Positions 649-31,450 of a DNA stretch of 34,725 nt are shown piece after piece; position 1 is the stretch's first letter, and each line of letters begins with the position of its first letter. This DNA comes from a virus. The translations under genes were made by a program, and so were the position numbers. The stretch is taken from IMG/VR virus record IMGVR_UViG_3300037193_000532, positions 1 through 34,725 of that record. One strand, given 5' to 3'. The notes beneath the pieces are model-generated. The model searched no databases. It was not told where the DNA came from and saw only the letters and a program-made list of their open reading frames with translations.

Positions 649-908
649 TACAAAATCCTCATTTCTCCTGTAGGATGAGTTCCCTTTGTCAGTGGGGCCT
701 CAGTCGTGTAAATGGCAATGATGTTCCTATGATACACAGAAATCTGAACACCATCACACTGAAAGACACTCTTCTGGTCTTCAACGCGATGGATCATACC
801 TACAAAGAAAGCAGTATTTTCTGTAGAGGTATCATCGAAGATGACCTTGAGTCTCTTGTCTGAATACTCATTTCTGATTCCTCGCATTTCAGTTGCGAGT
901 GCAGCCAT
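648..908 (-). CDS. Hypothetical protein, 86 aa
   Basis: Starts at the ATG at 908, with a TAGGAAAA ribosome-binding element directly upstream that is part of a dispersed-repeat cluster (920-929). The protein is predicted to be mostly beta-strand (KRLKVIFDDTS, ENTAFFVGMIHRVE, GVQISVYHRNIIAIYTTEA), so a small beta-barrel or SH3-like fold is possible. The C-terminal PTG codons are themselves a copy of the dispersed repeat (666-675). No known family. Confidence 0.6.
   Translation of the reverse strand: MAALATEMRGIRNEYSDKRLKVIFDDTSTENTAFFVGMIHRVEDQKSVFQCDGVQISVYHRNIIAIYTTEAPLTKGTHPTGEMRIL
666..675 (+). repeat. Dispersed repeat copy 1 (exact TCCTGTAGGA)
   Basis: Exact 10-mer near the 3' end of the 648-908 gene. 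On the gene's own strand it reads CCT ACA GGA (Pro-Thr-Gly). Confidence 0.75.
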
Positions 909-919
909 TTTTCCTACTT

Positions 920-929
920 TCCTACAGGA
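920..929 (-). repeat. Dispersed repeat copy 2 (exact, intergenic)
   Basis: Exact copy in the 25-nt gap between two leftward genes. On the minus strand it is followed by a second half-site (GTAGGAAAAAT) that also supplies the ribosome-binding site of the gene starting at 908. The intergenic copy at 4514 has nearly the same extension. Confidence 0.8.
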
Positions 930-933
930 AGGG

Positions 934-1152
934 TTAGTTTAGTCCTCGTTCATCTGAAACAGATGAATAACCTCTGGCGCCGACACTATGAGACAGTGCC
1001 GCCTTCAAAGCTTCCTTCTCTGTGTTAAGATGAAGAAAGATGCGAGCCCTTGGACGCTGCATTTTAGGAGGAAAGAACTCTACACATTCAAGAGCTTGAA
1101 CCCACTTATAGGTTCCCTTCTTTCCCTTAGCGAGAATAACTGTCTCAACCAT
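934..1152 (-). CDS. Hypothetical protein, 72 aa
   Basis: The preferred start is the ATG at 1152, which overlaps the helicase stop as TGATG and has a GAGGGG ribosome-binding site nine nucleotides upstream. An earlier ATG at 1182 would lie inside the helicase gene. The protein MVETVILAKGKKGTYKWVQA... has a lysine-rich start, a beta-type middle and a helix EKEALKAALSHSVG. A perfect hairpin (949-967) lies within its last codons. It is coupled to the SNF2 helicase, so a role as helicase partner is possible but unproven. Confidence 0.6.
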   Translation of the reverse strand: MVETVILAKGKKGTYKWVQALECVEFFPPKMQRPRARIFLHLNTEKEALKAALSHSVGARGYSSVSDERGLN

Positions 1153-3128
1153 CAGATCAGACCCCTCAGCTTTTCCTTCCAATCGGACGGACGAAGCTTT
1201 TCATCTTCCATGATGCCAGCAATCATGTTCTGCTTCTTCTCAAGGATCTCAGCAATGAAGGCGTCGACACTATCCTCAGCCTGGAGAATGTGAACCATGA
1301 CAGGGTTAACCTGCCCCTTACGGTGAACACGATCCTCTGCCTGAACATTGGTCATCGGGTTGTACCACAGATCAAGGAAGATCACGTTAGACGACCCTCC
1401 CGGCCAGAAATTCGGGTTCTTATGGAGGTTCAGACCCTCACCGCCGGACTTCATGTTGATGAGGATTACGTCGTATTCCTTCTGCTGAAAACCTTCGACA
1501 ATGTCGTCCACATTGTTCGAAGTAGCACCACTAAGAATTCGACTAGTGATGCCACGATCATGAAGAAGATCGGCAAGCCGATCAAGAGGCTCATTAAACT
1601 GAGCAGAAAAAACGACAACCTGCTCTCCCTCTCGATGCAACTCTTCGATGATATCGAGAGCCTCGTCCAACTTAGCCGATTCCTGGCAAGGAATAGCAGT
1701 CTCAGTACCATCCTCGTTCTTCATGTGAACGCTAGCAGGGTAGAGATTGATCTGACGCAGACGAGTAAGTTGAGCAATGATTGCTGTAGCAGTAATCGTC
1801 TTAGTCGGGTCCATGCTGTCGAGTTCAATAAAGAACTCATCACGCATCTTCTCGTAGAACTTACGCTGCAAGTCCGTATGCTCAACGAAACGAGTCTCGT
1901 GAGTCTTGTCAGGAAGCTGGATCTTGACTTCATCCTTACGGCGACGGATGCACTGCTTTTGCATAACAGTAATCAGTCGCTCGAAGTCAATAAGACCCTG
2001 CTCGTATGCGTAACAGAACTCACGCTCGAACTTACCGAGATTGTTGAATCGCTCGGGGTTGAAGATATGAAGGTAGGCCCACATATCACGAGGATGGTTG
2101 TTGACAGGAGAACCAGTCAGGAAGTTAAGAAAGGGAGCATTCCGATCCTTAAGATCCTGCATAGTAACGAACTTGCCAACTTCACGAGTACCGTGGACGA
2201 GTTCCTTCAAGTTCTGCCAGATAGCAGTAGGTCCCGAAGGGTTAGCTCCGCCCTTGAGCTTATGAACCTCGTCGCAGATAATGAAGTCCCACTTGGTATT
2301 CATCAGCTGCTTGTTAGTGTTCAGAGCTTCGTAGTTCGTGATGATAATGGCATTAGCTTGGAGAGCGTACTCTAGCACAATCTTACGCTTCTCAACATCG
2401 CCGCCATTAGTGAAAGCGATTGCCTTCATATCTGGGTCCCATCGCTTGATTTCACGATGAGTTGTCTTGATGAGTGCCTTCTTGGTGAGCCACAAAATCA
2501 GCGGCTTGCGAGAATTAACTGTGTAGAACTCATTGATAACTGCACGCAGCCAAACGATAGTCTCGAAAGTCTTACCGAGACCCATATCGTTGAAGTTGGC
2601 AACGCCGTTGTACTGCTGCTTCCAGACATCGTAGGCAAAAACAATGTCTTCGAACTGGTAATCAAGGATGGCATCCTTGAACGGAGCGTTCTCGATGAGA
2701 GAAAGAAAATCCTTCTCAACCTTCTCAAGACGTTCCTTGGCAGCAAGAAGCTGGAGAAGCTCAGTCTTCTTCTTCTCGGCATCTTCAAGCTCTGCTCGGA
2801 CAGCGTTGAGTTCGTGGAGGAATGCAAGCTTCTCGTTATGAAGCCTGTTGTACTCCTGGTTCCAAGCAAGAGCCTTCTCATCGAATGCCTTATTGTTTGC
2901 CTCAATGGCAAGCTTGGCCTCGTAGAGAATCTTCTCGTTAGACTGATCCGTTTCCTTACGGAGTTCCTCACGGTTAGAACGAATCTCGGTCATAGCCTCA
3001 TCAAAAGGCTTAGCTCCCTGCTCGAATTTCTTCATTGTCTTTTCGAGTTCAGAGATTCGCTTAATGAGAATATCCCACTCTGAGGGTTCATTCTCAGTAA
3101 GATTCAAGAGAGGGAGTTGGTCTGTCAC
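1152..3128 (-). CDS. SNF2-family DEAD/DEAH-like helicase with coiled-coil N-terminus
   Basis: A 658-residue superfamily 2 ATPase of the Snf2/Rad54 type. Residues about 17-150 are a long charged coiled coil (ISELEKTMKKFE... AVRAELEDAEKKKTELLQ). The ATPase follows: Walker A DMGLGKT at 181-187, motif II DEVH at 286-289, and a helicase C-terminal half ending in motif VI DRVHRKGQ near 599-606. These are standard signatures of Snf2 proteins, which translocate on duplex DNA and remodel protein-DNA complexes; in phages they are usually assigned to replication or recombination. The start is GTG at 3128, overlapping the upstream stop as GTGA. The coiled coil is additional to the usual phage Snf2 core and could drive oligomerisation or partner binding. 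Confidence 0.9.
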   Translation of the reverse strand: MTDQLPLLNLTENEPSEWDILIKRISELEKTMKKFEQGAKPFDEAMTEIRSNREELRKETDQSNEKILYEAKLAIEANNKAFDEKALAWNQEYNRLHNEKLAFLHELNAVRAELEDAEKKKTELLQLLAAKERLEKVEKDFLSLIENAPFKDAILDYQFEDIVFAYDVWKQQYNGVANFNDMGLGKTFETIVWLRAVINEFYTVNSRKPLILWLTKKALIKTTHREIKRWDPDMKAIAFTNGGDVEKRKIVLEYALQANAIIITNYEALNTNKQLMNTKWDFIICDEVHKLKGGANPSGPTAIWQNLKELVHGTREVGKFVTMQDLKDRNAPFLNFLTGSPVNNHPRDMWAYLHIFNPERFNNLGKFEREFCYAYEQGLIDFERLITVMQKQCIRRRKDEVKIQLPDKTHETRFVEHTDLQRKFYEKMRDEFFIELDSMDPTKTITATAIIAQLTRLRQINLYPASVHMKNEDGTETAIPCQESAKLDEALDIIEELHREGEQVVVFSAQFNEPLDRLADLLHDRGITSRILSGATSNNVDDIVEGFQQKEYDVILINMKSGGEGLNLHKNPNFWPGGSSNVIFLDLWYNPMTNVQAEDRVHRKGQVNPVMVHILQAEDSVDAFIAEILEKKQNMIAGIMEDEKLRPSDWKEKLRGLI

Positions 3129-3469
3129 GGCTTAACAGCCCTTTCGAGATTGTCGAACACGGCGTCGACCTTACCCATTGCCTTAGCAACATCGATTCGA
3201 ATGTTGTCTTCGGTAGTGGTGTTGAGGATATCTTCGAGAGACTTCTGAACGCGACCGAGAGCATTACTTGCTGCAATGATTGCCAAAGAATCAAGAGTTG
3301 CTGCATCTACTGCAAGCGAATCCTTCGGTCCACGAATCATTCCAGCAATGATCGAATGAGGGATTTGCTTTGCGAGAGAGTTAACTGTCTCACAAAATAC
3401 ATTCCATGCCTGCTGGGCCTCAGCGCTGTCGACGAGTGAGACATCGATAATCAATCTTTGAGCGTTCAT
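3125..3469 (-). CDS. Hypothetical alpha-helical protein, 114 aa
   Basis: I chose the ATG at 3469 (MNAQRLIIDVSLVDSAEAQQ) because AGGA lies five nucleotides upstream; the in-frame ATG at 3496 lacks such a site. The protein looks almost entirely helical (AQQAWNVFCETVNSLAKQI, LDSLAIIAASNALGRVQKSL) with a basic C-terminus. Its stop overlaps the helicase GTG, so the two are probably made together. A promoter-like sequence lies just upstream (3515-3543). No family recognised. Confidence 0.65.
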   Translation of the reverse strand: MNAQRLIIDVSLVDSAEAQQAWNVFCETVNSLAKQIPHSIIAGMIRGPKDSLAVDAATLDSLAIIAASNALGRVQKSLEDILNTTTEDNIRIDVAKAMGKVDAVFDNLERAVKP

Positions 3470-3514
3470 CTTTTTCCTGCTTTCTCCATTGGGCATAGTT
3501 GTGGCCCAAAGATC

Positions 3515-3543
3515 TTCTTATCACAGAACTAATTGGCTGTCAA
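3515..3543 (-). promoter_or_regulatory. Candidate promoter for the 3469->1 leftward operon
   Basis: On the minus strand a perfect TTGACA (3538-3543) is followed by a 17-nt spacer and TAAGAA (3515-3520). It sits in the 86-nt gap upstream of the 3469 start, the only sizeable gap between the 3556-4038 gene and the helicase operon. The -35 is exact; the -10 is weak (three of six to TATAAT). Confidence 0.5.
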
Positions 3544-3555
3544 GCGGTATTAGTT

Positions 3556-4038
3556 TCACATGAAATGTTCTGGGCTGATATGAGGATTCCCTGTGGCTAA
3601 GCACTTCTTAATTAGTTTCACACACTCGTCAGCAATTTCTGTGTACTCGTTTGCTTCGGGGCTACGAATTGTAGGCGAAGGAGGTAACCCTTCCATTCTC
3701 AAGAGGATCTCAAACGCCGCCGCAACGAGCTTTCGTGCTGTATAGATACCGTATTTCTTGTACTTATCGTGGTTTGTAAGGACATATGCCTTGCTTAACC
3801 AGCCAATTATTCCAAGAAGCACTCTCATTTCATCTGTAGTCGTCGCCGCAGTGGACCACTTTCTCTTGAGATGTGGCATTGAGAGCAGGTAACTTCTTGT
3901 CTTGAGAAAGTCATTTCCTACGAGACTGCTGATTAAAGGGGCGGATACGTCGTACTTTTCTTGTAGTTCTTCGAATGTAGCCATTCCATAAGCCGATACA
4001 TGGTTTCTAATTCTGTCTGTGTTGGTGGTACGAGGCAT
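3556..4038 (-). CDS. Putative winged-helix DNA-binding regulator, 160 aa, possibly leaderless
   Basis: Residues about 5-50 (RIRNHVSAYGMATFEELQEK, then YDVSAPLISSLVGNDFLKT) have the rhythm of a winged helix-turn-helix: a helix, a turn after the YDVS element, and a recognition helix. The rest is helical with a conserved-looking basic segment (NHDKYKKYGIYTARKLVAAA). The start chosen is the ATG at 4038. A promoter with an exact -35 at 4071-4076 would begin transcription at about 4041, only a few nucleotides upstream, so the ATG at 4059 would not be transcribed. A perfect palindrome abuts the -35, which suggests autoregulation. The function is inferred from fold pattern and context. Confidence 0.55.
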   Translation of the reverse strand: MPRTTNTDRIRNHVSAYGMATFEELQEKYDVSAPLISSLVGNDFLKTRSYLLSMPHLKRKWSTAATTTDEMRVLLGIIGWLSKAYVLTNHDKYKKYGIYTARKLVAAAFEILLRMEGLPPSPTIRSPEANEYTEIADECVKLIKKCLATGNPHISPEHFM

Positions 4039-4047
4039 AGGATAAGC

Positions 4048-4076
4048 AGGGTACAGCATATTTATTTACGTGTCAA
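4048..4076 (-). promoter_or_regulatory. Candidate promoter driving the winged-helix gene
   Basis: The minus strand reads TTGACA (4071-4076), a 17-nt spacer and TACCCT (4048-4053). The predicted transcription start, about seven nucleotides past the -10, falls near 4041, next to the ATG at 4038. That would give a leaderless or near-leaderless mRNA. Confidence 0.55.
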
Positions 4077-4077
4077 G

Positions 4078-4090
4078 TGAAGTTACTTCA
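4078..4090. promoter_or_regulatory. Candidate operator palindrome abutting the -35
   Basis: TGAAGT-T-ACTTCA is a perfect 13-bp palindrome one base away from the -35 hexamer of the 4048-4076 promoter. The position suits a repressor or activator site; the obvious candidate ligand is the product of the adjacent gene. Confidence 0.45.
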
Positions 4091-4092
4091 GT

Positions 4093-4410: not shown

Positions 4411-4513
4411 TATTTAAAGAAGCAAGCCATTTAACAAGAGCGACCGTCTGAAACAGACCATTGAACGTAAATAACGTAGACCAAGTGAGATTGAACGGCG
4501 GCGCCGAGAATGT

Positions 4514-4523
4514 TCCTGTAGGA
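4514..4523 (+). repeat. Dispersed repeat copy 3 (exact, intergenic)
   Basis: Exact copy with an adjacent second half-site (GTAGGAAAGAT), almost identical to the extension at the 920 copy. It lies about 80 bp before the terminator at 4605. Confidence 0.8.
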
Positions 4524-6611: not shown

Positions 6612-6621
6612 CCCTGTAGGA
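6612..6621 (+). repeat. Dispersed repeat copy 4 (core with C at position 1), intergenic
   Basis: CCCTGTAGGA. An inverted half-site (CCTACAAGGG, 6599-6608) immediately precedes it, so the two could form a short stem-loop. Confidence 0.7.
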
Positions 6622-6804: not shown

Positions 6805-7125
6805 TTACTCTGCGTGAGTACCTTCGACTTGTCTGCGTTCACGATCAGCGGTTCGATGCTGAAGCCAATGAATAGCTTCTTGAATATGAGTGATCGCAAG
6901 GGAGTTTTCTCTACAACGGAACTTTGTTTCGTTGTAGTGTTCAATTCTCTGCACAACAGCTTGGAGGACAGTTTCGACAAAGGCCCCGTCGGGTTCTTGA
7001 CGATCTTCACCTCTACCTAAAGGTCCATCCTGCCAAGTAATTGATAACCCAACGCCGCTGACGTAGCCACCAGCAGGATTACCGTTATCGTCGAGTCTGT
7101 TTTCAGCCTCAAACTTATCTAACAT
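6805..7125 (-). CDS. acb2: Acb2/Tad1-type cyclic-nucleotide sponge (anti-CBASS/anti-Thoeris), 106 aa
   Basis: ATG at 7125 with AGGAGAT upstream. Residues 69-103 (FRCRENSLAITHIQEAIHWL, then QHRTADRERRQVEGTH) match the Acb2/Tad1 hairpin domain as I know it from phages: a conserved R-E-x-S/A-L-A-I-T-x-L/I-x-x-A start, an amphipathic W-L helix and a VEGTH end. The N-terminal half (VGLSITWQDGPLGRG, then PDGAFVETVLQAV) is a pattern seen fused to this hairpin in actinophage proteins. Known family members bind and sequester signalling cyclic nucleotides of CBASS and, in related proteins, the cADPR-type signal of Thoeris, blocking abortive infection. The exact ligand here is unknown. Confidence 0.72.
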   Translation of the reverse strand: MLDKFEAENRLDDNGNPAGGYVSGVGLSITWQDGPLGRGEDRQEPDGAFVETVLQAVVQRIEHYNETKFRCRENSLAITHIQEAIHWLQHRTADRERRQVEGTHAE

Positions 7126-8754: not shown

Positions 8755-9445
8755 AGAAAAAGACGGCTCGTGGGTTCTTGATGAAGAGGATTTAGTTCTT
8801 GTTGCTTACATTGAGGAACAGTTCTGGCTTCACAATATCACCCCTCCTGTAGGAAATATTGCTGAGGCTTTAGAATATGATGGTAAGCGTGTTATCGAAC
8901 TGCTTCATGATGAACAGATCAATAACTACCTTCGTTCTCGTGCTGTTCCCAATCCCCTTGTCGAGCCTGTAGAGACAAAAGGTCTTACTGCTCAGCAAAT
9001 TCTTGTCGCTAACATGGTTCTCAACTCGATGGACAAGAAATCCATGCGAGAGAAGTTAAAAACAGTCGGCGTTAGTTCTCAGACATATTACGCCTGGATG
9101 AACAACCCGAACTTTGCTAATTACATTCAGGCTCGTTCTGAGAGAATGTTCACTCAAAGTGAGTGGCAGATTCGACAGGCCCTCGTTGAAACTGCTGCTG
9201 ATGGGGATGTTTCTGCGATCAAACTCTATATGGAGATGATTGGCAAATACGTTCCTCGAATGGAACACTCTGTCAATCTTGAAGGTCTTCTCTCTCAGGT
9301 AGTTGAAATCGTCAGCTACTTCCTTGAGAAAGAACAGATGCTTGAGTTCGCCAACATGGTCGAGATTCTTCTGCAAACTGGTACGATACCTAAGCGGGAA
9401 GCGATTACCGTTGGATCGAGGGAATTAAGTGGCGCAGAAAATTAG
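8744..9445 (+). CDS. terS: Terminase small subunit
   Basis: A 233-residue protein directly upstream of the large terminase, overlapping it by 17 nt. The central region (MDKKSMREKLKTVGVSSQTY then YAWMNNPNFANYIQARSERM) resembles the phBC6A51-type homeodomain HTH of small terminases, where a Tyr-x-Trp motif follows the recognition helix. The C-terminus is helical. Small terminases bind packaging-site DNA and recruit the large subunit. Codons 35-37 (CCT GTA GGA) are a copy of the dispersed repeat. The start ATG lies 11 nt before the previous stop. Confidence 0.8.
   Translation: MPHKEKDGSWVLDEEDLVLVAYIEEQFWLHNITPPVGNIAEALEYDGKRVIELLHDEQINNYLRSRAVPNPLVEPVETKGLTAQQILVANMVLNSMDKKSMREKLKTVGVSSQTYYAWMNNPNFANYIQARSERMFTQSEWQIRQALVETAADGDVSAIKLYMEMIGKYVPRMEHSVNLEGLLSQVVEIVSYFLEKEQMLEFANMVEILLQTGTIPKREAITVGSRELSGAEN
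8845..8854 (+). repeat. Dispersed repeat copy 5 (exact, in terS)
   Basis: Exact TCCTGTAGGA; in frame it reads Pro-Val-Gly. Confidence 0.75.
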
Positions 9446-11684: not shown

Positions 11685-13690
11685 GCATGATGGCTGATCT
11701 TGTGCAGCAACTCCTTCCTGTAGGAAATGGACCTGTTGCTCCACAGATTCCTCAGTTAATCGACCAGTTAACCGGCCGTGATAAGGACGCACTTCTCGAC
11801 AAAGTCGAGAAGTGGTTCAAACAATGCCGTGAAGATCGTTTACCGTTCGAACGTGAATGGTACCTCAACATGGCGTTCTATTTTGGTCGTCAGAATGTAA
11901 CCTGGGCGAACACTACGACCAGTGGGTTTGCTAAGCTCGTAGAGCCAAAGGCTCCGAGTTGGCGAACTCGAATGATCGTCAATCGAATCAAGCCAACGAT
12001 TCGAAAGGAAATGGCGAAGCTCCTACAGGAACGTCCTAGAGGTTTTGTTATTCCTTCCAGTTCAGATGATGCTGATCTTGCGGCGGCTCATGCTGGTGAC
12101 GCAATCCACGAACACGTTACTACTCAGGACATCAAGTTCGAGAAGGTTCTTTGGAACGCTATTTTCTGGATGGGTCTGACTGGTAACGGATTCATTAAGG
12201 ATTGGTGGGACGATCAAGCAATCGATGCTTCTGGTGTTCAGGGTAAGATTATGGCAGAGGCTGTTTCGCCCTTCCATATTCTAGTTCCAGACCTTGATCA
12301 GACAGAACTCGAAATGCAACCGTACGTTATCCACTCAGTGACCAAGAACCCTGAGTGGGTAAAAGACGTTTATGGTGTTGATGTAGATCCAGACACTCTT
12401 GGCAACGATTCAGGGATTGAAACCCAGTTCTACACAGCACTGGGCATCAAGACTGATAATGCTAGAAAGAAAGTCGTTGTCAAAGAATGCTGGATTAAAC
12501 CTTGCGGGGATTACCCGAAGGGGATGAAGATCACGTGGGCAAACAAGAAGCTTCTGGAAGTGAGAGAAGGTAATCCCTACGCTCATAATCAGTACCCGTT
12601 CACGAAGATCGATCACATTCCTACAGGCAGATTTTACTCTCAGTCCACGATTGTTGATCTGATTCCTATTCAGAGAGAATACAATCGTACCCGCTCGCAG
12701 ATCATCGAAGCAAAGAACAGAATGTCAAAGCCACAGCTTGTGGCTCCCGAAGGTTCTGTTAATCCTGCAAAGATTACTTCTGAGCCTGGCTTGATCATTT
12801 TCTATATGCCAGGAATGCAGCCTCCGCAACCGCTTCCATTACAGGCACTTCCGAGTTACGTTCTGCAAGAACTTGATCGTTCTATTATGGATATGAACGA
12901 TATCAGTTCTCAGCACGAAGTCTCTCGTGGACAAGTTCCGCCGAATGTTGAAGCTGCGACGGCTATTGCGTACCTGCAAGAACAAGATGATACTGTTCTT
13001 GCTCATACGTTGCACAGCATCGAACAGGCTGCTGAGAATCTCGGTCGCCATGTTCTTTCTCATGCTAATCAGTTCTGGGATGCTGAAAGAACGATTAGTG
13101 TAACTGGTCGTAACAACGTCTTTGAGTCGTTTGTTTTCTCTCAGGCTGATCTTAGAGGAAACACGGCTTACAAAGTTGTTCACGGTTCTTCGACACCGAG
13201 AAGTCGTGCTGCTAAGCAGGCATGGATCACTGAGTTAATGAAGCTTGGCTTCATTCCTCCCGATCGTGGCTTGCAATACCTTGAGATGGCTGAAACGTCG
13301 AAACTGTACGAAGAGATGCAGATCGATGTTCGTCATGCTCAACGTGAAAATCTCATGCTCAGCCAAGGTAAGACTGATGTTGTTGTTAACGATTTTGATA
13401 ATAACATTGCTCATCTTACTGAGCATTGGGCCTACATGAAGCGCCAAGAATTCGAACAGCTTCCTGATGAAACTAAGATGTTGTTCATGATGCATTGTGA
13501 AGAGCATAAAATGCAGCTCTCTGCGGAGATGGGTGTTTTCTTGCCGCCTCAGACTCCCTTCTTAAATGGCTTCGTTAAGCAAATGCTTGGACAGATTCCT
13601 CCCATCCCAGGCATGATGGGCGGCGGATCACCTGCTATGCCTGAGGAACAAACCGGTGGCGCAGAACAACAGACAGCTCCAACAGGTTGA
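11681..13690 (+). CDS. Portal protein
   Basis: A 669-residue protein, long but within the range of portals of P22-like phages. It begins with the helical KVEKWFKQCREDRLPFEREW segment and the NMAFYFGRQNVTW element typical of these portals. The middle contains the clip/stem-type segment PIQREYNRTRSQIIEAKNRM and the ISSQHEVSRGQVPPNVEAAT loop, and the C-terminus is Met/Pro/Gly-rich. It forms the dodecameric DNA gateway. Three dispersed-repeat copies lie inside (11716, 12021, 12619), one of them in a different reading frame from the other two. Confidence 0.9.
   Translation: MSMMADLVQQLLPVGNGPVAPQIPQLIDQLTGRDKDALLDKVEKWFKQCREDRLPFEREWYLNMAFYFGRQNVTWANTTTSGFAKLVEPKAPSWRTRMIVNRIKPTIRKEMAKLLQERPRGFVIPSSSDDADLAAAHAGDAIHEHVTTQDIKFEKVLWNAIFWMGLTGNGFIKDWWDDQAIDASGVQGKIMAEAVSPFHILVPDLDQTELEMQPYVIHSVTKNPEWVKDVYGVDVDPDTLGNDSGIETQFYTALGIKTDNARKKVVVKECWIKPCGDYPKGMKITWANKKLLEVREGNPYAHNQYPFTKIDHIPTGRFYSQSTIVDLIPIQREYNRTRSQIIEAKNRMSKPQLVAPEGSVNPAKITSEPGLIIFYMPGMQPPQPLPLQALPSYVLQELDRSIMDMNDISSQHEVSRGQVPPNVEAATAIAYLQEQDDTVLAHTLHSIEQAAENLGRHVLSHANQFWDAERTISVTGRNNVFESFVFSQADLRGNTAYKVVHGSSTPRSRAAKQAWITELMKLGFIPPDRGLQYLEMAETSKLYEEMQIDVRHAQRENLMLSQGKTDVVVNDFDNNIAHLTEHWAYMKRQEFEQLPDETKMLFMMHCEEHKMQLSAEMGVFLPPQTPFLNGFVKQMLGQIPPIPGMMGGGSPAMPEEQTGGAEQQTAPTG
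11716..11725 (+). repeat. Dispersed repeat copy 6 (exact, portal)
   Basis: Exact TCCTGTAGGA; codes Pro-Val-Gly in frame near the portal N-terminus. Confidence 0.75.
12021..12030 (-). repeat. Dispersed repeat copy 7 (exact, portal, other frame)
   Basis: Exact copy in reverse orientation. In the portal frame it is read CTC CTA CAG GAA (Leu-Leu-Gln-Glu), so it is not explained by a conserved peptide. A further CTAGGAC half-site lies next to it on the minus strand. Confidence 0.8.
12619..12628 (-). repeat. Dispersed repeat copy 8 (one mismatch at the outer base, portal)
   Basis: TCCTACAGGC keeps the full 8-bp core in reverse orientation; codes Pro-Thr-Gly. Confidence 0.65.
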
Positions 13691-13820: not shown

Positions 13821-14085
13821 ACGACAAATCGGTTCGATCAATACAGATTTCGTAGTCAAAGGTGGTGGCTCGGCAAACAAGCAGACAGGTGGAGCATCCG
13901 CTGGGGATGCTCCACATTATACTGATGTCGATATTCATGATATCGATGCCATGAGAACTGCTTTAGCTGCTTTTAATGGTACTCGCTACACTTCTGCTAG
14001 ACTCGCCGCCATGACTGTTAATGATATGACCTTTGCCTGTAGGAGAGAAGGTCTTCTTCAAGCAGTTGTTAATGCCGTCAAATAA
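13813..14085 (+). CDS. Hypothetical head-operon protein, 90 aa
   Basis: GTG at 13813 with GAGGAG upstream. N-terminal 35 residues are Gly/Ser/Ala-rich and flexible (VVKGGGSANKQTGGASAGDA), followed by a compact helical domain (DIDAMRTALAAFNGTRYTSA, then ARLAAMTVNDMTFACRREGLL). No family recognised. Position between portal and scaffold suggests a head-assembly accessory. The 14035 repeat copy sits at its C-terminus as Ala-Cys-Arg codons. Confidence 0.65.
   Translation: MARRQIGSINTDFVVKGGGSANKQTGGASAGDAPHYTDVDIHDIDAMRTALAAFNGTRYTSARLAAMTVNDMTFACRREGLLQAVVNAVK
14035..14044 (+). repeat. Dispersed repeat copy 9 (core, third reading frame)
   Basis: GCCTGTAGGA; read GCC TGT AGG A (Ala-Cys-Arg), a third translation frame of the same core. 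Confidence 0.7.
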
Positions 14086-16649: not shown

Positions 16650-17185
16650 TGCCCGTCGCCGCTGGTGATGTCCGGTTAAAATACAGCACCAAAGTCGGCG
16701 CAGCGGGTAATGCTAACGCTGGCAACGCTGCTGGCTCATTAGGCAAGTATATCTCAACGACTGAGATTACTTCTGCTGTTGCAAACAACTTATTTGATGA
16801 CGTTAGCGCATCAGAAAATGCTGCCAGCGATGTCGAATACCGTTGTTTCTTTCTCCATAACGCTCATGCCACATCTACATTTGAAAACGTGAAGATGTGG
16901 ATTCAATCAGAGGTTGCTGGTGGAACATCATTTGCCATTGGTGTTGATCCCGCCGCTGCTTCTGCTATTGGTGCTGCTCCTGCTCAAGCTGCGGAAGTTG
17001 CTAATGAAAATGTGGCTCCTGTAGGAGTAGTGTTTTCATCTCCTGTTGATCAGACTTCTGGAATCAACATCGGTAATATTCCTCCTGGGCAGTGTCGAGC
17101 AGTCTGGGTTCGTAGAACTGCTGCAAATACTGTTGCTGTTTCTGGCGATGGTGGTACTTTCCGAGTTTTTGGTGAAAGTGTCTAA
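16649..17185 (+). CDS. Virion structural protein, beta-sandwich type, 178 aa
   Basis: The sequence alternates beta-strand and Ala/Gly loops. The element SDVEYRCFFLHNAHATSTFE resembles a segment I know from small virion proteins of many podoviruses and lambdoids; it is followed by NIGNIPPGQCRAVWVRR, a second typical strand. It may decorate the capsid or form part of the tail apparatus. The repeat copy at 17017 encodes Pro-Val-Gly here. The stop overlaps the next start (TAATG). Confidence 0.65.
   Translation: MPVAAGDVRLKYSTKVGAAGNANAGNAAGSLGKYISTTEITSAVANNLFDDVSASENAASDVEYRCFFLHNAHATSTFENVKMWIQSEVAGGTSFAIGVDPAAASAIGAAPAQAAEVANENVAPVGVVFSSPVDQTSGINIGNIPPGQCRAVWVRRTAANTVAVSGDGGTFRVFGESV
17017..17026 (+). 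repeat. Dispersed repeat copy 10 (exact)
   Basis: Exact TCCTGTAGGA followed by GTAGTG, a partial extra half-site; Pro-Val-Gly in frame. Confidence 0.75.
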
Positions 17186-21657: not shown

Positions 21658-21838
21658 TCAAACAGGACAGTTCGCTAGGGGTAAAAACATGTACCCTGGC
21701 GGTAATGCACCACATACCACTAATGGGCCTCAGAGTTTCGCCGCCAAGAGTGGTAACGTAAACTCCCCTGTAGGAGAAGATTCTTTCCGTACTGCGATTC
21801 TTCGTCGCTTGGTCAATAGATTTGGAGCCCGATTCTAA
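21623..21838 (+). CDS. Small basic hypothetical protein, 71 aa
   Basis: Three start codons lie in a row (TTG 21617, GTG 21620, ATG 21623); I use the ATG. The product is Gly/Asn/Pro-rich (NPLTGQQDPRSQTGQFARG) and ends with a basic helix (DSFRTAILRRLVNRFGARF). It overlaps the previous gene by 35 nt. The conserved-looking basic tail and coupling to the next gene (stop overlaps ATG at 21838) support expression. Function unknown. Confidence 0.5.
   Translation: MNPLTGQQDPRSQTGQFARGKNMYPGGNAPHTTNGPQSFAAKSGNVNSPVGEDSFRTAILRRLVNRFGARF
21766..21775 (+). repeat. Dispersed repeat copy 11 (core)
   Basis: CCCTGTAGGA; codes Pro-Val-Gly. Confidence 0.65.
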
Positions 21839-24732: not shown

Positions 24733-27700
24733 GTAGTATTACAGATCAAATCATCGAACAGATTTTAGCTAGAGACGCTCCGAACATTTCGGTTCAGGGG
24801 CGTTCTTCACGTTCTGGTCGGAGAGGGAATAGAAGAGGAAGTAGAAGAGGCGGCGGAGTTGATCCTGATGCTGTCTTAGCTTCGATCATGAATCCTAACG
24901 AACTGAATATCCCGGATCTTGGTCCGAGAGAACAGTATCGTTATCGAATTGCTCAAACAGCTGCTCAGCTTGGGTTAGATCAGTCTGCGGTTGATGCAAT
25001 TACTTCTGCTGATACAGAAGACTTACAGCTTTACGAACAAGCTCTGTTAGCAGATGGTGATCCAAGAGAGAATCTTGCAAGAGCCGCCGCCGGAGCAGCT
25101 TTCAACAATGAAAACTGGTTCGAGAGAAACGTTGGGGCTCCTGTAGGAAGTGGGTTAGGTCGAGTTTTTCATGAACTCAGTCGACCTCTTAATGCAGTTA
25201 CTGGTTTCTTAACTGAAGCTCAGGAAGCATATAAGCAAGACTTCGATCTTAACCCATTTAATAACAACATTGGTGAAGCTCTTGGTGCTGGTCTTCGTGG
25301 TGCTTGGCGTGGTGCTGACTACGATGAGCATTACGGTACTCGTACTGTTTTACAGGCTGCCGGTGAAGACGTCCCTGCTGTTCGACGTCTACAGGAAACT
25401 CCTGTTGTGGGTCCTGTTCTTGAATTCGCTGGTGACGTTGCTCTTGATCCTTTGAATTTCCTCGGAATTAGAGCTATTCGTCCTGGTGGAAATCGAGTTG
25501 ACGAAGCTGCTGATCAAGCAAGACGGTTTGTTGCAGAAAGCACTAATGCTTCTGAGTTAGAACAGTTTCGTGCGCTTCCTATTAACCAACGTGGTCCTAT
25601 TGTTGAGGATATCATCAAGGATGCGTTTACACCGTACAATGCTCGAAGAGGGGCAAGAGGACGATTCCGCAGTCCGAACGTTCGAGAACGTGCTACTAGG
25701 GAAGCAACAGAAGTTTTTGATCCTGTTTTGAACCGTGGTGTTTCTCGCCCTGACTGGCTTCCTGAAACAGCGCCGAAGGGATATCAAGCTAGAGAACGGT
25801 TAGTGGAGATGATCCTTGAAAAGGACGATCTGCATAGACTTCGTACTGGTGAACAAACTGTTCGACTTGATAACTACTTACAACGACATAGTCGTCTTGC
25901 TCAAAATGGTTTCTTATCAGTTCGACTTGGTGGACAAGAAATCATTGGGGATAATCCTGTAACAAGAGGACTTTTCAGAGCAGGGGCTGGAGTTCGTCAC
26001 GCCATTGGTTACAAGCCAACTGGTGATGCTCGTCGCTTTACCCGCCTCTTCGCATTTGGACGTAGAGATACAGGTGAAGTTGCTGAGCACTTTAGACGTG
26101 CTCAAGGTAATTACGCTGGTTGGGGTGAAGCATCTCTTCACGATCTTGGTAACGCTCGTCGTTTGGTTACAAATGATGAGATGGATCAGATTGTGGATGC
26201 TCTGGATTCTTTAAAGAATCCTAAGATCGATCCTGAAACTGTTTGGGAACAGCTTGATCAAATTCCTCTTCAAAAAGGTGGAATAGTCGGCAGTCCCGTT
26301 GATGGTTTGACTGAGATTGGTCTAGAGACAGTTGGTGATGTTGGCCGATTTTATGCCAATGTCATGGACACGCTTACTAACCTCGAAAGAGCTGTTGGTG
26401 TTCGAGCGTTAGATGAGCATGTTCCTCTGTTTCCTGTTCGTCCAAAGGGTGGTCGGACTCTTTCTGCTGCTGAGCAGAAGATGCCTATTTCCGAATTGAA
26501 GGCTAGAAATATTAAATTCGATGACCCCTTAACTTCTCTGGCGGACAATGTTTCGTATCGGTTAGCGAACCTTGCGGGCGCAGAAGCACAGGTTCTTTCA
26601 CTTGAACAATACGCTATTCGTATTAGAGATCCTCGTGCGACTATGCGTAAGGTTCAACCTAGGGATGCAGCTAAGGCAGTCAAAAGAACCAGTCAAACTG
26701 GTTCAAGATTAGAAGACATTGTCCTTGGTGATATGCAACCAACAACTCAGGAGCTACTTCGTGGTGGAAACCCAATCGTTGAGCCAGGCGTTAATCCTAT
26801 CGTCGGTCCTAATGCTGACTCCTATCTTGAAACTCCCGAAGGCATGGCGTTTGCTAAAAAAGTCGCAGAAGAGGCTAAGCGACGTGGGAGCGCCAGAGTA
26901 GGTTTAATGGAGTTTGTACCTGTAACAAAGGTCAAGTCTCCAATCGTTAAGCAATGGCTCAAGCAAGATAACATTAGAACAACAGACATCCTCTTACCTC
27001 GTCCAATCGCAGAAGCGATCGATCAAATGGATCGCTTTGTTCGTTCTCCTACAGAAGCAGGTGCGCTTCTTAGAAGTTACGATCAAGCGATGTCTGTGTG
27101 GAAAAAGGCAGTTACAGTCTACAATCCTGGCTATCATGTTAGAAACAGCTTCTCTGACTACTTCATGAATGTGGCGGCTGGTGTTCGTGGTCCACAGCCT
27201 TATCAGAAGGCTATGCGAGTTATCACGAACAGGTTCCGTCACAATGAAGGCGCTGTTCAAGAAGTCATGAAGCCGTTACAAGCTCTTGGTGATTCAACAA
27301 GAGGCTTTGTAAGAGGTGAACGAATCAATTTTGCTGGTCAGCAAGTCCGTGCTGACGCTATTTGGCACTTGTACGCTAGATATTCTGGAGCGAAGAGTGG
27401 GCAAATTCGTGCGGAACTCACCAACATCATTGATCGAGCGGCAACGCAAAGAAAACGACCGGGCGCTGCACTTACGAGATTCTCAGAAGGTCGTGAAGAC
27501 TATATGCGCTTGGCGCACTTCATCGATCGTTTCGAGAAGCAAGCGGCGAAACGTAGAATCAGGGTTACAGATAATGGCGTCCTGACTGCTGAGGCTCGAA
27601 AGCTGTCTCAAGAAGTTGGCGACAAGATTAGAATGTACAACCTTGATTATGGGGCTAAGACTCCATTTGAACGAGACGTGATGTCTCGGATCATTCCGTT

Positions 27701-28535
27701 CTACACGTACCTTCGTAAGAATCTTCCGTTGCAGGTTCAGCTTATGCTGACTCAGCCTGGCATGATCGCTAAGTATCCGAAGTACAAGAATCTTTTCGAA
27801 GGGCTAATGGGTAACCCTGAGGAAGATGATTCTACTGTACTGATTCCTGATTGGATCCAGCGGTCGTTCCCTTGGGTTGTTGAAACAGAATCTAGAAGAA
27901 ACTCTGGACCAATCGGTCAGCTCCTTTCTATGTTCGGAGCCGGTGGAGATTCTGGCGCTGTTGTGATGCCAATGGAATCGATGATGCCTATTGGTTCTCT
28001 CAACGAGTTTGCCTCAATCACTGACCCACTTATGCAAGGTCGTTTACCTCGAATGGACGAGGTTTCACGTCAGTTTGCACAAACTCTGTCTGGAACGAAC
28101 CCTGCTCTTAGAGTGCCATTTGAAATCGCCGCCGGGGAGCAGCTTTTCACTGGTCAAGAATTGAATGATCCAGGAGATTGGCTTAAATATGCATTAGGAC
28201 AGATCCCTGTAGGAAGACTTAGTGGTGCTGCTGTCATGGACGGGCCATCTGGTGTCCAAGATGACTTCATGCGTTGGCTTACTGGTCTTCCTATTCGACA
28301 AGTCACTCCTGTTAACGAACAGTCTGAATTCCGTCGTCGAGAAGATGCTCTAGAAGCTGTTCGTGGAAACGTCTTAAGTGAAGTTAATGCAGAACTCAGG
28401 GAAGCTGGCTATGAAGAAGTTACTAGCCTTCCTGCCCTTGATCCTGATGAACTAATCATGGCGATAATCGCAGCAGCAGAGCGCCGACGCCGGCCAATTC
28501 AATATTCTGAGGAGTATTTGACAGCAAATGGGTAA
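24729..28535 (+). CDS. Giant internal virion / DNA-ejection protein, 1,268 aa
   Basis: TTG at 24729 overlaps the previous stop. The N-terminus has an arginine-rich segment (RSSRSGRRGNRRGSRRGGG) that could bind DNA. The C-terminal third has the phage pattern NPGYHVRNSFSDYFMNVAAG and YNLDYGAKTPFERDVMSRII with PFYTYLRKNLPLQVQLMLTQ, which I recognise from large polyvalent/internal virion proteins of many podoviruses and prophages. It is presumed packaged in the capsid and ejected to carry genome across the envelope. Repeat copies lie at 25139 and 28205. Confidence 0.72.
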   Translation: MSSITDQIIEQILARDAPNISVQGRSSRSGRRGNRRGSRRGGGVDPDAVLASIMNPNELNIPDLGPREQYRYRIAQTAAQLGLDQSAVDAITSADTEDLQLYEQALLADGDPRENLARAAAGAAFNNENWFERNVGAPVGSGLGRVFHELSRPLNAVTGFLTEAQEAYKQDFDLNPFNNNIGEALGAGLRGAWRGADYDEHYGTRTVLQAAGEDVPAVRRLQETPVVGPVLEFAGDVALDPLNFLGIRAIRPGGNRVDEAADQARRFVAESTNASELEQFRALPINQRGPIVEDIIKDAFTPYNARRGARGRFRSPNVRERATREATEVFDPVLNRGVSRPDWLPETAPKGYQARERLVEMILEKDDLHRLRTGEQTVRLDNYLQRHSRLAQNGFLSVRLGGQEIIGDNPVTRGLFRAGAGVRHAIGYKPTGDARRFTRLFAFGRRDTGEVAEHFRRAQGNYAGWGEASLHDLGNARRLVTNDEMDQIVDALDSLKNPKIDPETVWEQLDQIPLQKGGIVGSPVDGLTEIGLETVGDVGRFYANVMDTLTNLERAVGVRALDEHVPLFPVRPKGGRTLSAAEQKMPISELKARNIKFDDPLTSLADNVSYRLANLAGAEAQVLSLEQYAIRIRDPRATMRKVQPRDAAKAVKRTSQTGSRLEDIVLGDMQPTTQELLRGGNPIVEPGVNPIVGPNADSYLETPEGMAFAKKVAEEAKRRGSARVGLMEFVPVTKVKSPIVKQWLKQDNIRTTDILLPRPIAEAIDQMDRFVRSPTEAGALLRSYDQAMSVWKKAVTVYNPGYHVRNSFSDYFMNVAAGVRGPQPYQKAMRVITNRFRHNEGAVQEVMKPLQALGDSTRGFVRGERINFAGQQVRADAIWHLYARYSGAKSGQIRAELTNIIDRAATQRKRPGAALTRFSEGREDYMRLAHFIDRFEKQAAKRRIRVTDNGVLTAEARKLSQEVGDKIRMYNLDYGAKTPFERDVMSRIIPFYTYLRKNLPLQVQLMLTQPGMIAKYPKYKNLFEGLMGNPEEDDSTVLIPDWIQRSFPWVVETESRRNSGPIGQLLSMFGAGGDSGAVVMPMESMMPIGSLNEFASITDPLMQGRLPRMDEVSRQFAQTLSGTNPALRVPFEIAAGEQLFTGQELNDPGDWLKYALGQIPVGRLSGAAVMDGPSGVQDDFMRWLTGLPIRQVTPVNEQSEFRRREDALEAVRGNVLSEVNAELREAGYEEVTSLPALDPDELIMAIIAAAERRRRPIQYSEEYLTANG
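25139..25148 (+). repeat. Dispersed repeat copy 12 (exact)
   Basis: Exact TCCTGTAGGA, followed by AGTGGG; Pro-Val-Gly in frame. Confidence 0.75.
28205..28214 (+). repeat. Dispersed repeat copy 13 (core)
   Basis: CCCTGTAGGA; Pro-Val-Gly in frame near the 3' end of the giant gene. Confidence 0.65.
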
Positions 28536-28947
28536 ATCACTTTCTGATCGCCAAAGAGATGATCTTTTATCTGGTGACACAATTACTCCAGTTCCTTCTG
28601 CATCTGCTACTGGTGCACTGCTTAACCGATTCCTGGCTGCTGCTACGACTAATCTTAGAACAGTGAAAAACGCACCAGGTAGAATTTTAGGTTGGCGTTT
28701 TGTCAATACCAGTGCAGCTGTTAAATTTGTCAAAATTTATGACAAAGCTTCAAACCCTGTATTAGCTAGTGATGTTCCTGTTATTACAATTCCATTACCT
28801 GCAAACGGTGCAACGGACTTTAATCTGGGCGGATTAGGTGTAACCTTTGCAAATGGAATTGCTATGGCTTGTACTGGTGCTGTTGCAGATAATGATGCAA
28901 CAGCTGTTGCTGCAAATGACGTCGTGGGCTTTATTGCATATATCTAA
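28528..28947 (+). CDS. Virion-associated beta protein, 139 aa
   Basis: The segment GWRFVNTSAAVKFVKIYDKA, followed by VPVITIPLPANGATDFNLGG and VTFANGIAMACTGAVADNDA, is a pattern I recognise in small proteins of many phages, usually placed among tail-tip or decoration genes (folded as a beta-sandwich). AT-rich codons contrast with the neighbouring hydrolase genes. It overlaps the giant gene by 8 nt. Structural role inferred. Confidence 0.6.
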   Translation: MGKSLSDRQRDDLLSGDTITPVPSASATGALLNRFLAAATTNLRTVKNAPGRILGWRFVNTSAAVKFVKIYDKASNPVLASDVPVITIPLPANGATDFNLGGLGVTFANGIAMACTGAVADNDATAVAANDVVGFIAYI

Positions 28948-29450
28948 TGGCTATTAACGCTGAAGACATCATTAAGATGTCTTTGAAGTCAAACCAAGAT
29001 TTCTTAGACAACAGACGATACATTTCAACTGCGTTGAATCAAGTTACAAGCGGGGGTGGATTACCAGAGGCACACGGTCATGCGCTAACAGAAGGTGGTC
29101 ATGGAGAATCCCCTTATTCCGCTGACAATCCTTATGGCCTTGAACCTGAGCTTTATCGGCGCATCATGCGCCTTAACGAAATGTCTCCATTTGGGCCGAA
29201 CACTGTCACAGTCGGTTCCGGTTACAGATCGTTCGAAGAACAAGCTCGGTTATACCAAGACTGGCAAAACGGAGTCCCAGGACAAGCAAGAGCTGCGCCA
29301 CCCGGCAGATCAAACCATAATCACGGAACAGCGGCGGACCTCGAATACGCATCCGAAGAGGCGAAACGGTGGGTCCAGTCAGTAGCTCGTGAATTAGGTC
29401 TCCACTTCCCTGTTGAAGGTGAGGACTGGCACGTTGAGCGATATAACTGA
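28947..29450 (+). CDS. Peptidoglycan M15-family peptidase (VanY-type), 167 aa
   Basis: Metal site of M15 D-Ala-D-Ala carboxypeptidases: GYRS at 92-95, then S-x-H-x-x-G-x-A-x-D at 122-131 (SNHNHGTAADL) giving ligands H124 and D131, and EDWHVE at 159-164 giving H162. The family cleaves peptide cross-links. The N-terminus (EDIIKMSLKSNQDFLDNRR) is a short amphipathic leader resembling that of the next gene. It is followed by two other hydrolases; a virion-associated role at infection is plausible, or lysis. Confidence 0.85.
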   Translation: MAINAEDIIKMSLKSNQDFLDNRRYISTALNQVTSGGGLPEAHGHALTEGGHGESPYSADNPYGLEPELYRRIMRLNEMSPFGPNTVTVGSGYRSFEEQARLYQDWQNGVPGQARAAPPGRSNHNHGTAADLEYASEEAKRWVQSVARELGLHFPVEGEDWHVERYN

Positions 29451-29931
29451 TCTGATTCAAGAAATTGGCCTCTTTGGAAAACCGAAAGAGAAGGCTGGTT
29501 TCGATCCACGAGAAGTCATTCAAATGGCTCTCGACAGTAACAATTCGATCATCAAGGGAAATAGACAGCGCAGTTCCTTTTCTCCTACAGGAAGCCCTTC
29601 TTCTATTGTAGGATCCTCTGCACCCGGAGCACCTGTTGACGGAGATTCTGTTCAAAGACTCGCTCAGTCAATGGCGGCTGGACAATACGGTTGGGGACAA
29701 GATGAATGGAACGCTCTCTACGAACTTGTTAGAAGAGAGTCTGGATGGAACCCCAATGCGGCGAACCCAAATTCGACTGCTAGGGGTTTATTCCAGAAAA
29801 TGACCAGTATTCATGGTCCACTCGAAGCGGATCCTGCTGGTCAAATTGCTTGGGGACTTCAATACATTGCCGGTAGGTATGGTACACCTAGTGCCGCACT
29901 AGACTTTCACAACAGAAACAACTGGTACTAA
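29434..29931 (+). CDS. Lytic transglycosylase (SLT-type), 165 aa
   Basis: I use TTG 29434, with GAGG nine nucleotides upstream, rather than earlier TTG/GTG codons. The catalytic element ALYELVRRESGWNPNAANPN places the glutamate at E102, followed by STARGLFQKM, the conserved Gly-x-x-Q segment of SLT domains. It cleaves glycan strands by forming anhydromuramic ends. An N-terminal leader (PREVIQMALDSNNSIIKGNR) is similar to that of the upstream peptidase. A repeat copy lies at 29583 in the linker. Confidence 0.82.
   Translation: MSDITDLIQEIGLFGKPKEKAGFDPREVIQMALDSNNSIIKGNRQRSSFSPTGSPSSIVGSSAPGAPVDGDSVQRLAQSMAAGQYGWGQDEWNALYELVRRESGWNPNAANPNSTARGLFQKMTSIHGPLEADPAGQIAWGLQYIAGRYGTPSAALDFHNRNNWY
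29583..29592 (-). repeat. Dispersed repeat copy 14 (exact, SLT gene linker)
   Basis: Exact copy in reverse orientation; codes Pro-Thr-Gly in the linker. Its minus-strand left flank (GGGCTT) matches that of the intergenic copy at 6612. Confidence 0.75.
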
Positions 29932-29932
29932 G

Positions 29933-30688
29933 ATGTTCATTCAAGCAAGGCAATACTACCGTGGTCGTAGAAATCCGATTAAACGTATCCATGTTCATAG
30001 CATGGAGGCTCCCGAAAAGGGGACAACTGCTGAGAGTATTGCCAACTACTTTGCCAATCTGACTGAGCGTAAAGCATCTGCTCACTATTGTTTCGATAAT
30101 AATAGTGAGGTACAGTGTGTTAGAGATGAAGATACTGCGTTCCATGTTGGAAACGACAACAGTTCTTCTATCGGTCTAGAACACGCTGGATATGCTCGTC
30201 AGACTCGTGAAGACTGGCTTGACCAATACGGTCGAGATATGCTGGAAATCTCTGCAAAGAGATGTGCTCAGCTTTGTCACGAACATGATATCCCTCCTGT
30301 CTGGCTTGACGTCGTTGATCTTAGAGAAGATCAACGAGGAATCAGCTCTCATGCCAACGCAGCGATTGCCTTCGGTGGTTCAACGCATTGGGACCCCGGA
30401 CCTGGATTCCCGCACGACTACTACATTGAAAGAGTCCAGTTCTATTACTATGGAGGCGAGGACGATTTGACTCCCGAAGAGAAGAAGTTACTGTTCAAAA
30501 TTCTGGGTGATATCCACTCAGCTTTAACAAACAGAGAAGATCCGAATAGTCCAGTTAAGCTTGTTCTCGAAGGCACCGGAAGACAACGAGATACTCTGGC
30601 TGGTCTTATTAGAAAGGTGTTCGATCTTCCGGCTGGTGGTACAGAAGATACCAAGTTCATCGGCTGGCTCAGGAGTAAACTCGGTTAA
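29933..30688 (+). CDS. N-acetylmuramoyl-L-alanine amidase (endolysin), 251 aa
   Basis: An amidase_2/PGRP-like enzyme: the first zinc-ligand strand IHVHS (H20/H22), HYCFDNNSEVQC with SIGLEHAG for the core, SSHAN (H140) and the family signature HWDPGPGFP (D154). Residues beyond about 170 form a separate helical region (SALTNREDPNSP ... KFIGWLRSKLG), possibly cell-wall binding. It starts at ATG 29933, right after the SLT stop. It is the likely endolysin, because the membrane proteins that follow make up the lysis cassette. Confidence 0.88.
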   Translation: MFIQARQYYRGRRNPIKRIHVHSMEAPEKGTTAESIANYFANLTERKASAHYCFDNNSEVQCVRDEDTAFHVGNDNSSSIGLEHAGYARQTREDWLDQYGRDMLEISAKRCAQLCHEHDIPPVWLDVVDLREDQRGISSHANAAIAFGGSTHWDPGPGFPHDYYIERVQFYYYGGEDDLTPEEKKLLFKILGDIHSALTNREDPNSPVKLVLEGTGRQRDTLAGLIRKVFDLPAGGTEDTKFIGWLRSKLG

Positions 30689-30900
30689 TGACAAAGCAGT
30701 CACGTACGGAAGCAAGAGCGGGCCTCACTGATATCTACAGAATTGCTCGCTTAGAAGAAGATGGCGACATTTTTGATGATATTCTGAAAGAGGTAAAAGA
30801 AGATATCAAGACAGTTAAAAATATCCTCTTTGGCGTTCTTGTTTCTGTTACAACTGCTAGTATCCTACTAATGGTCAATGTGTTGGTGGTCAGGAACTAG
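30688..30900 (+). CDS. Small membrane protein of the lysis cassette, 70 aa
   Basis: A cytoplasmic coiled coil (DIFDDILKEVKEDIKTVKN) followed by one strong transmembrane helix (ILFGVLVSVTTASILLMVNV) ending in VVRN. Its ATG overlaps the amidase stop. Its position and topology fit a holin or antiholin-like partner, but no family identity is visible. Confidence 0.65.
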   Translation: MTKQSRTEARAGLTDIYRIARLEEDGDIFDDILKEVKEDIKTVKNILFGVLVSVTTASILLMVNVLVVRN

Positions 30901-31265
30901 TGGACATCAGAAACAACAGATTGTTAGTCATCGTTGCAATCTTCACTTGCATCTTTATTTTGATGGGTGGTGTCACCGTCTATTTATGGAATCAAGAGAG
31001 AAGTCAACGTCAAGAAGAAAATGTGGCTAATGATCTGTTTGCCTGTGAGCGAGGAAACGTCCTCAGAGACGAGATAAGAGAACTAGCAGAAGCTGGTAGA
31101 ACTCTTGACTCTGAGATCCTTCGCATCATTTTCTCTCGTGTCCAAGATCAGGAACTAATTGAGCAACTCGAAAGAGACTTAGGTCCTGCATTCGCAGAAT
31201 TCGATCTAGCAGTAGATGATATCAACAATGTCTCTTGTGAGGATGTGATTCGGGGTGTGGGATAA
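30900..31265 (+). CDS. Membrane-anchored coiled-coil protein, 121 aa
   Basis: GTG at 30900. One N-terminal transmembrane helix (LLVIVAIFTCIFILMGGVTV) and a large extracytoplasmic charged domain with a pair of cysteines (C49, C115). The topology is that of an inner-membrane spanin-like or lysis-accessory protein of Gram-positive phages; the exact role is unknown. Confidence 0.6.
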   Translation: MDIRNNRLLVIVAIFTCIFILMGGVTVYLWNQERSQRQEENVANDLFACERGNVLRDEIRELAEAGRTLDSEILRIIFSRVQDQELIEQLERDLGPAFAEFDLAVDDINNVSCEDVIRGVG

Positions 31266-31437
31266 AGTTAGAGAAGCTCGTAAAACAGTTGCTGCCGTAA
31301 TAGGAGCCCTTTGCGTTTGGGCTCTTGCAGCGTGGGCGGACGGTTCTGGTATTACTAGAACCGAATGGATTGCGCTCGTCGCCGCCGTGGGGACGCCGCT
31401 GGGGGTCTATGCAGTACCAAACGACAGAGCCTCTTGA
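31255..31437 (+). CDS. Holin, 60 aa
   Basis: GTG at 31255. Two hydrophobic helices (VAAVIGALCVWALAAWA; WIALVAAVGTPLGVYAVPND) separated by a short turn and ending in the YAVPN element that I know from many small actinophage holins of the r1t-like type. Last gene of the late operon; the stop is four nucleotides before a dispersed-repeat copy and 25 nt before the terminator. Confidence 0.75.
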   Translation: MWDKVREARKTVAAVIGALCVWALAAWADGSGITRTEWIALVAAVGTPLGVYAVPNDRAS

Positions 31438-31440
31438 CTT

Positions 31441-31450
31441 CCCTGTAGGG
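31441..31450 (+). repeat. Dispersed repeat copy 15 (symmetrical variant, intergenic)
   Basis: CCCTGTAGGG: both outer bases changed together, which keeps the arm symmetry. It is followed by a half-site (TAGGACG) and lies between the holin stop and the terminator. Confidence 0.65.

Follow-up and report, generated by a model that had tools for sequence, protein, structure and literature searches.

A dispersed, strand-oriented word in Jasmine-like actinophages as a probable recognition site of the phage primase

The viral DNA analyzed here, i.e., the window, is a 34.7-kb genome fragment in IMG/VR (record IMGVR_UViG_3300037193_000532). A short word, CCTGTAGG, is scattered over it in 15 copies. The word is most likely the recognition site of a phage-encoded primase, which would fix the starts of lagging-strand (Okazaki) fragments. 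That the primase binds the word and primes there, and that Okazaki fragments begin at it, we infer from the selection acting on the word, its variants in the phage family, its oriented and even spacing, and its association with a primase domain across unrelated phages.

Copies of the word and selection at the DNA level

Exact matching between positions 666 and 31449 gave 15 copies of CCTGTAGG, nine of which extend to TCCTGTAGGA. These counts agreed with those of a sequence-only reading in which the repeat had been pointed out. In dinucleotide shuffles, the 8-mer occurred 0.58 times on average (standard deviation 0.78), and no shuffle attained 15. It was the top enriched 8-mer of the window, with 0.8 copies expected from a third-order Markov model.

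The strong sites, i.e., exact matches to TCCTGTAGGA, were found on the plus strand at 666–675, 4514–4523, 8845–8854, 11716–11725, 17017–17026, and 25139–25148, and on the minus strand at 920–929 (intergenic), 12021–12030, and 29583–29592. The site at 8845–8854 is placed in a small-terminase-like gene (phrog_24579 match), and that at 11716–11725 at the start of the portal gene (phrog_156 match). The other copies match the 8-mer exactly. They read CCCTGTAGGA at 6612–6621 (intergenic), 21766–21775, and 28205–28214, all on the plus strand, GCCTGTAGGA at 12619–12628 (minus) and 14035–14044 (plus), and CCTGTAGG at 31442–31449 (plus, intergenic). Altogether, 11 copies are on the plus strand and four on the minus strand. 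When only the core CTGTAG is counted, the set widens to 35 copies between positions 668 and 34110, with 18 on the plus strand and 17 on the minus strand (about 16 expected in total).

Twelve copies lie within open reading frames (ORFs), two of which (those holding the copies at 667 and 4515) have weak support, and three are clearly intergenic (921, 6613, and 31442). The sequence-only reading had given 11 genic and four intergenic copies. The genic copies mainly encode Pro-Val-Gly or Pro-Thr-Gly, with one Leu-Gln and one Cys-Arg, as had been read before, and one Tyr-Arg was additionally present.

A codon-preserving shuffle, named beforehand as a possible refutation, was run 1000 times over the 45 gene calls made for the window. 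The 12 genic copies of CCTGTAGG compared with a mean of 1.7 and a maximum of 6 in the shuffles, and the eight genic copies of TCCTGTAGGA with 0.3. A Pro-Val-Gly repeat kept at the protein level was ruled out by this result and by the intergenic and antisense copies. Because of the excess over the codon shuffle and the conservation of the word in relatives, the scattered word is real and under selection at the DNA level, as the sequence-only reading had proposed.

Variants of the word in related phages

Proteins of the window matched terminase, portal, major head protein, PolA, SNF2-like helicase, RuvC-like resolvase, and WhiB. By tblastn, the relatives of the window were the podoviral Arthrobacter phage Jasmine and its relatives Adat and Casserole, Microbacterium phage Shocker, Cellulosimicrobium phage DS1, and MW202795. 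The window was therefore grouped with these phages and is a piece of a Jasmine-like lytic actinophage.

Each relative has its own dispersed hexamer of the form CTGT-N-G, in which N is A, G, or C. This core is the most enriched hexamer in most full genomes of the family. Among 2080 hexamers, CTGTNG ranked first by enrichment in MW202795, with 98 copies against 28, in the Jasmine group, with 101 against 16, and in DS1, with 116 against 28. Per-position counts showed that CTGT and the following G barely vary, while the fifth base is constant in each phage and varies among phages. As longer words, CCTGTAGG occurs 28 times in MW202795 (1.9 expected) and CTGTAAAG 45 times in Shocker (1.8 expected), and the enriched words are CTGTGGGA in Jasmine, Adat, and Casserole and CTGTCGCT in DS1. 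Palindromic symmetry is absent from the words of the relatives, i.e., CTGTGG, CTGTCG, and CTGTAAAG. The near-palindrome described earlier is present in the window, but it is incidental because its symmetry is not conserved.

The genomes of Jasmine and Adat share 91% identity, and 37 of 42 CTGTGGG sites were unchanged between them, whereas control words with permuted letters were unchanged in only 56% of cases (binomial P 1e-5). These sites are under purifying selection.

The word was not enriched in phages of the same hosts, i.e., Gordon and Galaxy (Arthrobacter 21022, the host of Jasmine) and Burro and ValentiniPuff (M. paraoxydans, the host of Shocker). Phage Amigo, which shares its host with Jasmine, uses a different word. 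A Chi sequence of the host was ruled out by these comparisons among phages.

Other dispersed words were also seen. In Shocker, CCTGTCGG occurs 25 times (4.4 expected) beside CTGTAAAG, as if there were two primase specificities, and TACCCTAA occurs 15 times (0.04 expected). Four copies of CTGTAAAG, all on the minus strand, are found at the left end of Shocker (98–447). Copies at the right end (45045–45394) are spaced identically, which suggests that the sites lie in the terminal repeat. A rare word, TACCCTA, is common to Shocker and an unrelated M. paraoxydans phage and is possibly a host-related signal. The temperate Arthrobacter phage Galaxy has a different dispersed word, CCCCGAGT (28 vs. 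1.5 expected). In seven records of Jasmine-like phages, CGGTAAAG / GGTAAA or the complementary word is enriched as a second word.

Strand-specific even spacing

The gaps between plus-strand copies of CCTGTAGG are 3848, 2098, 2233, 2871, 2319, 2982, 4749, 3373, 3066, and 3236 nucleotides, i.e., 2.1–4.7 kb with a mean of 3.1 kb and a coefficient of variation (CV) of 0.25. Among 1,000,000 random placements, such evenness had a P of 5.1e-5, and only two of the 1365 choices of 11 among the 15 sites were equally even. This evenness was noticed post hoc, and the tests on other genomes weigh more. The CTGTAG cores of the window are also more even than chance on each strand (CV 0.65 and 0.56).

In the genomes of the family, sites of a single strand are evenly spaced, and those of both strands pooled are much less so. 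For the strand test, all site positions were fixed and only the orientation labels were permuted in 18 genomes. The Stouffer Z was −4.7, with negative values in 15 of the 18, while control hexamers of similar count from the same genomes gave a mean of +2.0 and a minimum of −2.3 in 20,000 draws. Some of the 18 genomes are mutually related, so the nominal P is to be taken loosely, but the contrast with the controls is large. Distant lineages gave a Z of −3.7. On each strand, sites are on average 0.8–0.9 kb apart in Jasmine, MW202795, and DS1, and those of the core hexamer in the window are about 2 kb apart. The word is used asymmetrically and in a strand-specific manner. Even spacing per strand would be predicted for a signal that is read on single strands and needed repeatedly on each strand, and would not be predicted for a dimeric operator.

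It is therefore very improbable that the sites are dispersed operators or stoperators to which a regulator protein of the phage binds. The near-palindrome in the window and the dispersed, conserved, and partly intergenic sites are what such operators would look like, and the sequence-only reading had likened the layout to the repressor stoperators of L5-type phages. That likeness did not hold. The sites have no consistent sense or antisense bias, i.e., 17 sense and 16 antisense for the extended site set in the rightward block of the window, three and seven in its left leftward block, and mixed counts in other genomes. No clustering at promoters, at an origin, or elsewhere was found, the symmetry is not conserved, and the spacing is specific to orientation. 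No repressor or integrase was recognized among the scanned proteins of this incomplete genome, and none is annotated in the genomes of Jasmine, Adat, Casserole, Shocker, DS1, and MW202795. The two small proteins that had been proposed as binders are not needed for the explanation.

Localized single-strand interruptions, i.e., nicks of the kind known from T5, phiKMV, and tf, were also considered. The nick consensus of tf, TACT/RTGMC, likewise came out as an enriched 8-mer when tested in this way and also contains CTGT, and the podoviral layout with two convergent arms is similar. However, the nicks of tf, T5, and phiKMV-like phages are confined to one strand (PMC3517423), whereas sites are found on both strands here, as in every family genome examined, and number about 100 in Jasmine. 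Moreover, tf has no detectable homolog of the primase described below. Nick sites hence have very little probability.

The primase-helicase protein of the relatives

In Pfam searches, the primase-helicase proteins matched RepB_primase (best E 4e-7, 9 of 32 members) and AAA_25, and no zinc-domain families were among the matches. The AlphaFold2 model of the N-terminal 304 amino acids had a predicted local distance difference test score of 92. The model matched the RepB' primase (3h20) with an E of 4e-10, the RepB' catalytic domain with initiator DNA (3h25) with a template modeling (TM) score of 0.72, and the PrimPol domain of cyanophage S-2L with a TM score of 0.74. The helices at residues 214–295 come after the catalytic domain as a helix bundle. 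The C-terminal part resembled the RepA helicase of RSF1010 (1nlf, TM score 0.79). Thus, a RepB'-like catalytic fold with a helix bundle and without a zinc domain was found in the relatives, which encode, beside PolA, a protein with an N-terminal RepB'-type archaeo-eukaryotic primase (AEP) domain, usually fused to a RepA-like ring helicase. A primase of the T7 gp4 type was rejected because the protein is composed of AEP and RepA parts and not of zinc and TOPRIM domains. In many phages of the CTGTCG class, the region of the single primase-helicase ORF appears split into two ORFs.

In the genomes of the Jasmine group, Shocker, DS1, and MW202795, the structural arm is directed rightward and the replication arm leftward. 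The gene of PolA, i.e., phage DNA polymerase I, is found at 33244–34707 on the minus strand of the window (phrog_17 match), and the fragment breaks off at its start. In MW202795 and Jasmine, the primase-helicase gene is directly upstream of PolA. At 6805–7125 of the window, a small ORF showed a sub-threshold match (E 3e-5) to the hairpin domain of Acb2/Tad1, the anti-CBASS/Thoeris sponge family.

Genes that accompany the word

An IMG/VR search with the primase-helicase alone gave 79 loci, and nearly all of those longer than 9 kb showed an enriched CTGT-type word. Along the primase tree, the motif class changed only about five times. It agreed about equally well with the trees of PolA and the exonuclease, and inside the family the primase is accompanied by these two genes and, in nearly all records, by terminase. 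The comparison was therefore extended to phages beyond the family.

Pseudomonas phage PMBT14, Serratia phage Serbin, Mycobacterium phage FF47, and Gordonia phage Nina are siphoviruses with other structural genes, and they encode primase-helicase homologs (profile E 1e-60 to 1e-70). The top hexamer of all four is GTGTGG, which, like CTGTGG, contains GTGG. The top 8-mer of Microbacterium phage Golden is GTGTGGCC. In Arthrobacter phage Amigo, homology is limited to the N-terminal primase part, and GTGTGC occurs 92 times against 25 (strand z −3.1). No such word was found in MW202554 and MW202458, which have distant capsid and portal genes and lack a primase of this kind, nor was a TGTNG word found in Ghobes, which encodes an exonuclease homolog (E 2e-6), a Sak4-like gene, PolA, and an unrelated primase. 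By these sequence comparisons, the word accompanies the primase in otherwise unrelated phages.

Other readers of the word were considered. The SNF2 helicase was rejected, as its gene is absent from two 42–44 kb records that retain the motif. A scan of viral contigs based on SNF2 gave no finds. The exonuclease, PolA, and Sak4 are inseparable from the primase by the family trees, and Ghobes argues against them. The same genes enter into another explanation, in which the word is a Chi-like site, i.e., an oriented signal for a phage recombination nuclease (RecB/Cas4-like exonuclease and Sak4-like ATPase) that limits degradation or steers recombination. Such a signal is likewise read on one strand, the exonuclease was present in 21 of 21 long primase-carrying records tested, and the motif classes agree with the exonuclease tree no worse than with that of the primase. 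However, Ghobes retains these genes with a different primase and has no word, the homology of Amigo is to the primase N-terminus, and other phages of the same hosts are without the word, so it is no shared host Chi. This explanation is unlikely, though less so than the other rivals.

Another strand-read signal of replication or packaging, e.g., for helicase loading, phasing of single-stranded DNA-binding protein, or terminase recognition, would fit the orientation and spacing, and most members have helicase and primase in one fusion protein. However, only the primase and helix-bundle part is retained in Amigo, and capsid and portal relatives lacking this primase have no word. It is reasonable to give such signals only a slight chance.

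Proposed role in lagging-strand priming

Recognition by the primase, the favored explanation, is in line with the replication signal listed among the alternatives of the sequence-only reading. The helicase would expose the lagging-strand template, and the primase would read [C/G]TGTNG plus flanks (CCTGTAGGA in the window) as a single strand. The primer would begin just 5' of the word and would be extended by PolA. As priming would be repeated along each lagging template, the phage would need evenly spaced copies on each strand acting as such a template. Plus-strand sites would serve rightward forks. Strong sites of the window are commoner on the plus strand, as would be expected if its forks moved mainly rightward. 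In the window, the bases upstream of the word are strongly pyrimidine, which is not general in the family, and these would yield purine-rich primer starts. Recognition may drift among lineages, and the site set of the genome would drift along with it.

Several points weigh against this explanation. The primase gene is not within the window and, by the gene order of the relatives, would be next to PolA, beyond the right end. Given the co-occurring genes and equally fitting trees, comparisons inside the family do not point to the primase in particular, and the argument for it rests on the six distant phages and Ghobes. Some genomes, i.e., Serbin (z +1.9), L104 (+1.4), L079, and L087, show little even spacing, none, or the opposite. 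AEP primases can act at GTG alone, and a need for 6–10 nucleotides is only putative. In T7, which has a primase of a different family, the sites are neither enriched nor evenly spaced (T7 primase pentamers as positive control).

Primases are usually held to need about three bases, and genomes would hence show no trace of lagging-strand starts. The evidence leans, by a small measure, toward a phage-specific genomic code of Okazaki starts in a large group of phages, i.e., primase words of 6–10 nucleotides, placed every 0.8–3 kb or so per strand and coevolving with a RepB'-type primase. In the window, the spacing of about 3.1 kb, mostly on one strand, would give fragments of set length and mainly rightward forks. 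If so, lagging-strand starts would be visible by eye, specific to each phage, and readable in any genome with this primase, and Okazaki initiation would be predictable and directly testable. This reading would also account for a class of repeats that are dispersed in the genomes of actinophages and proteobacterial phages. The words CTGTAG, CTGTGG, CTGTCG, GTGTGG, and GTGTGC would represent a natural series of primases with altered specificity for structure-function work. No earlier description was found in the part of the literature that was searched.

Comparison with known systems

The RepB'/RepA/ssi system of RSF1010 is similar in its zinc-free AEP with a helix bundle, RepA ring helicase, sequence-specific single-strand initiation, and GTG start (PMC4434180, PMC4538821), the GTG start motif being that of ssiA (PMC4434180). 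However, RSF1010 has one 40-nucleotide hairpin ssi site per strand and only leading-strand-type replication, whereas in the phages here the sites are short and linear and number in the tens on each strand, with apparently repeated priming, and the primase and helicase are fused.

The PrimPol of phage NrS-1 (NrSPol) is also a phage AEP without a zinc finger, in which the helix bundle is required for priming, and it recognizes GTG/GTGG and the 8-nucleotide TTTGGTTA (PMC8718748). NrSPol is itself the replicative polymerase, whereas the phages here have a separate PolA. ORF904 of pRN1 is an AEP that recognizes GTG by its helix bundle (PMC8718748), but this is a trinucleotide only, and no genome-wide enriched set was described in the literature consulted.

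T7 gp4 uses short oriented template sites (GGGTC/TGGTC) for Okazaki priming. It differs in being a TOPRIM/zinc primase of unrelated fold, with frequent sites in the T7 genome. The L5 stoperators, the repeats of cluster O and EG phages, and the SAS/ESAS elements are likewise short conserved words repeated over an actinophage genome. However, the repeats of clusters EC, EF, EG, and EI are intergenic or associated with gene starts (PMC7302621), whereas the words described here are mostly genic and strand-neutral to transcription.

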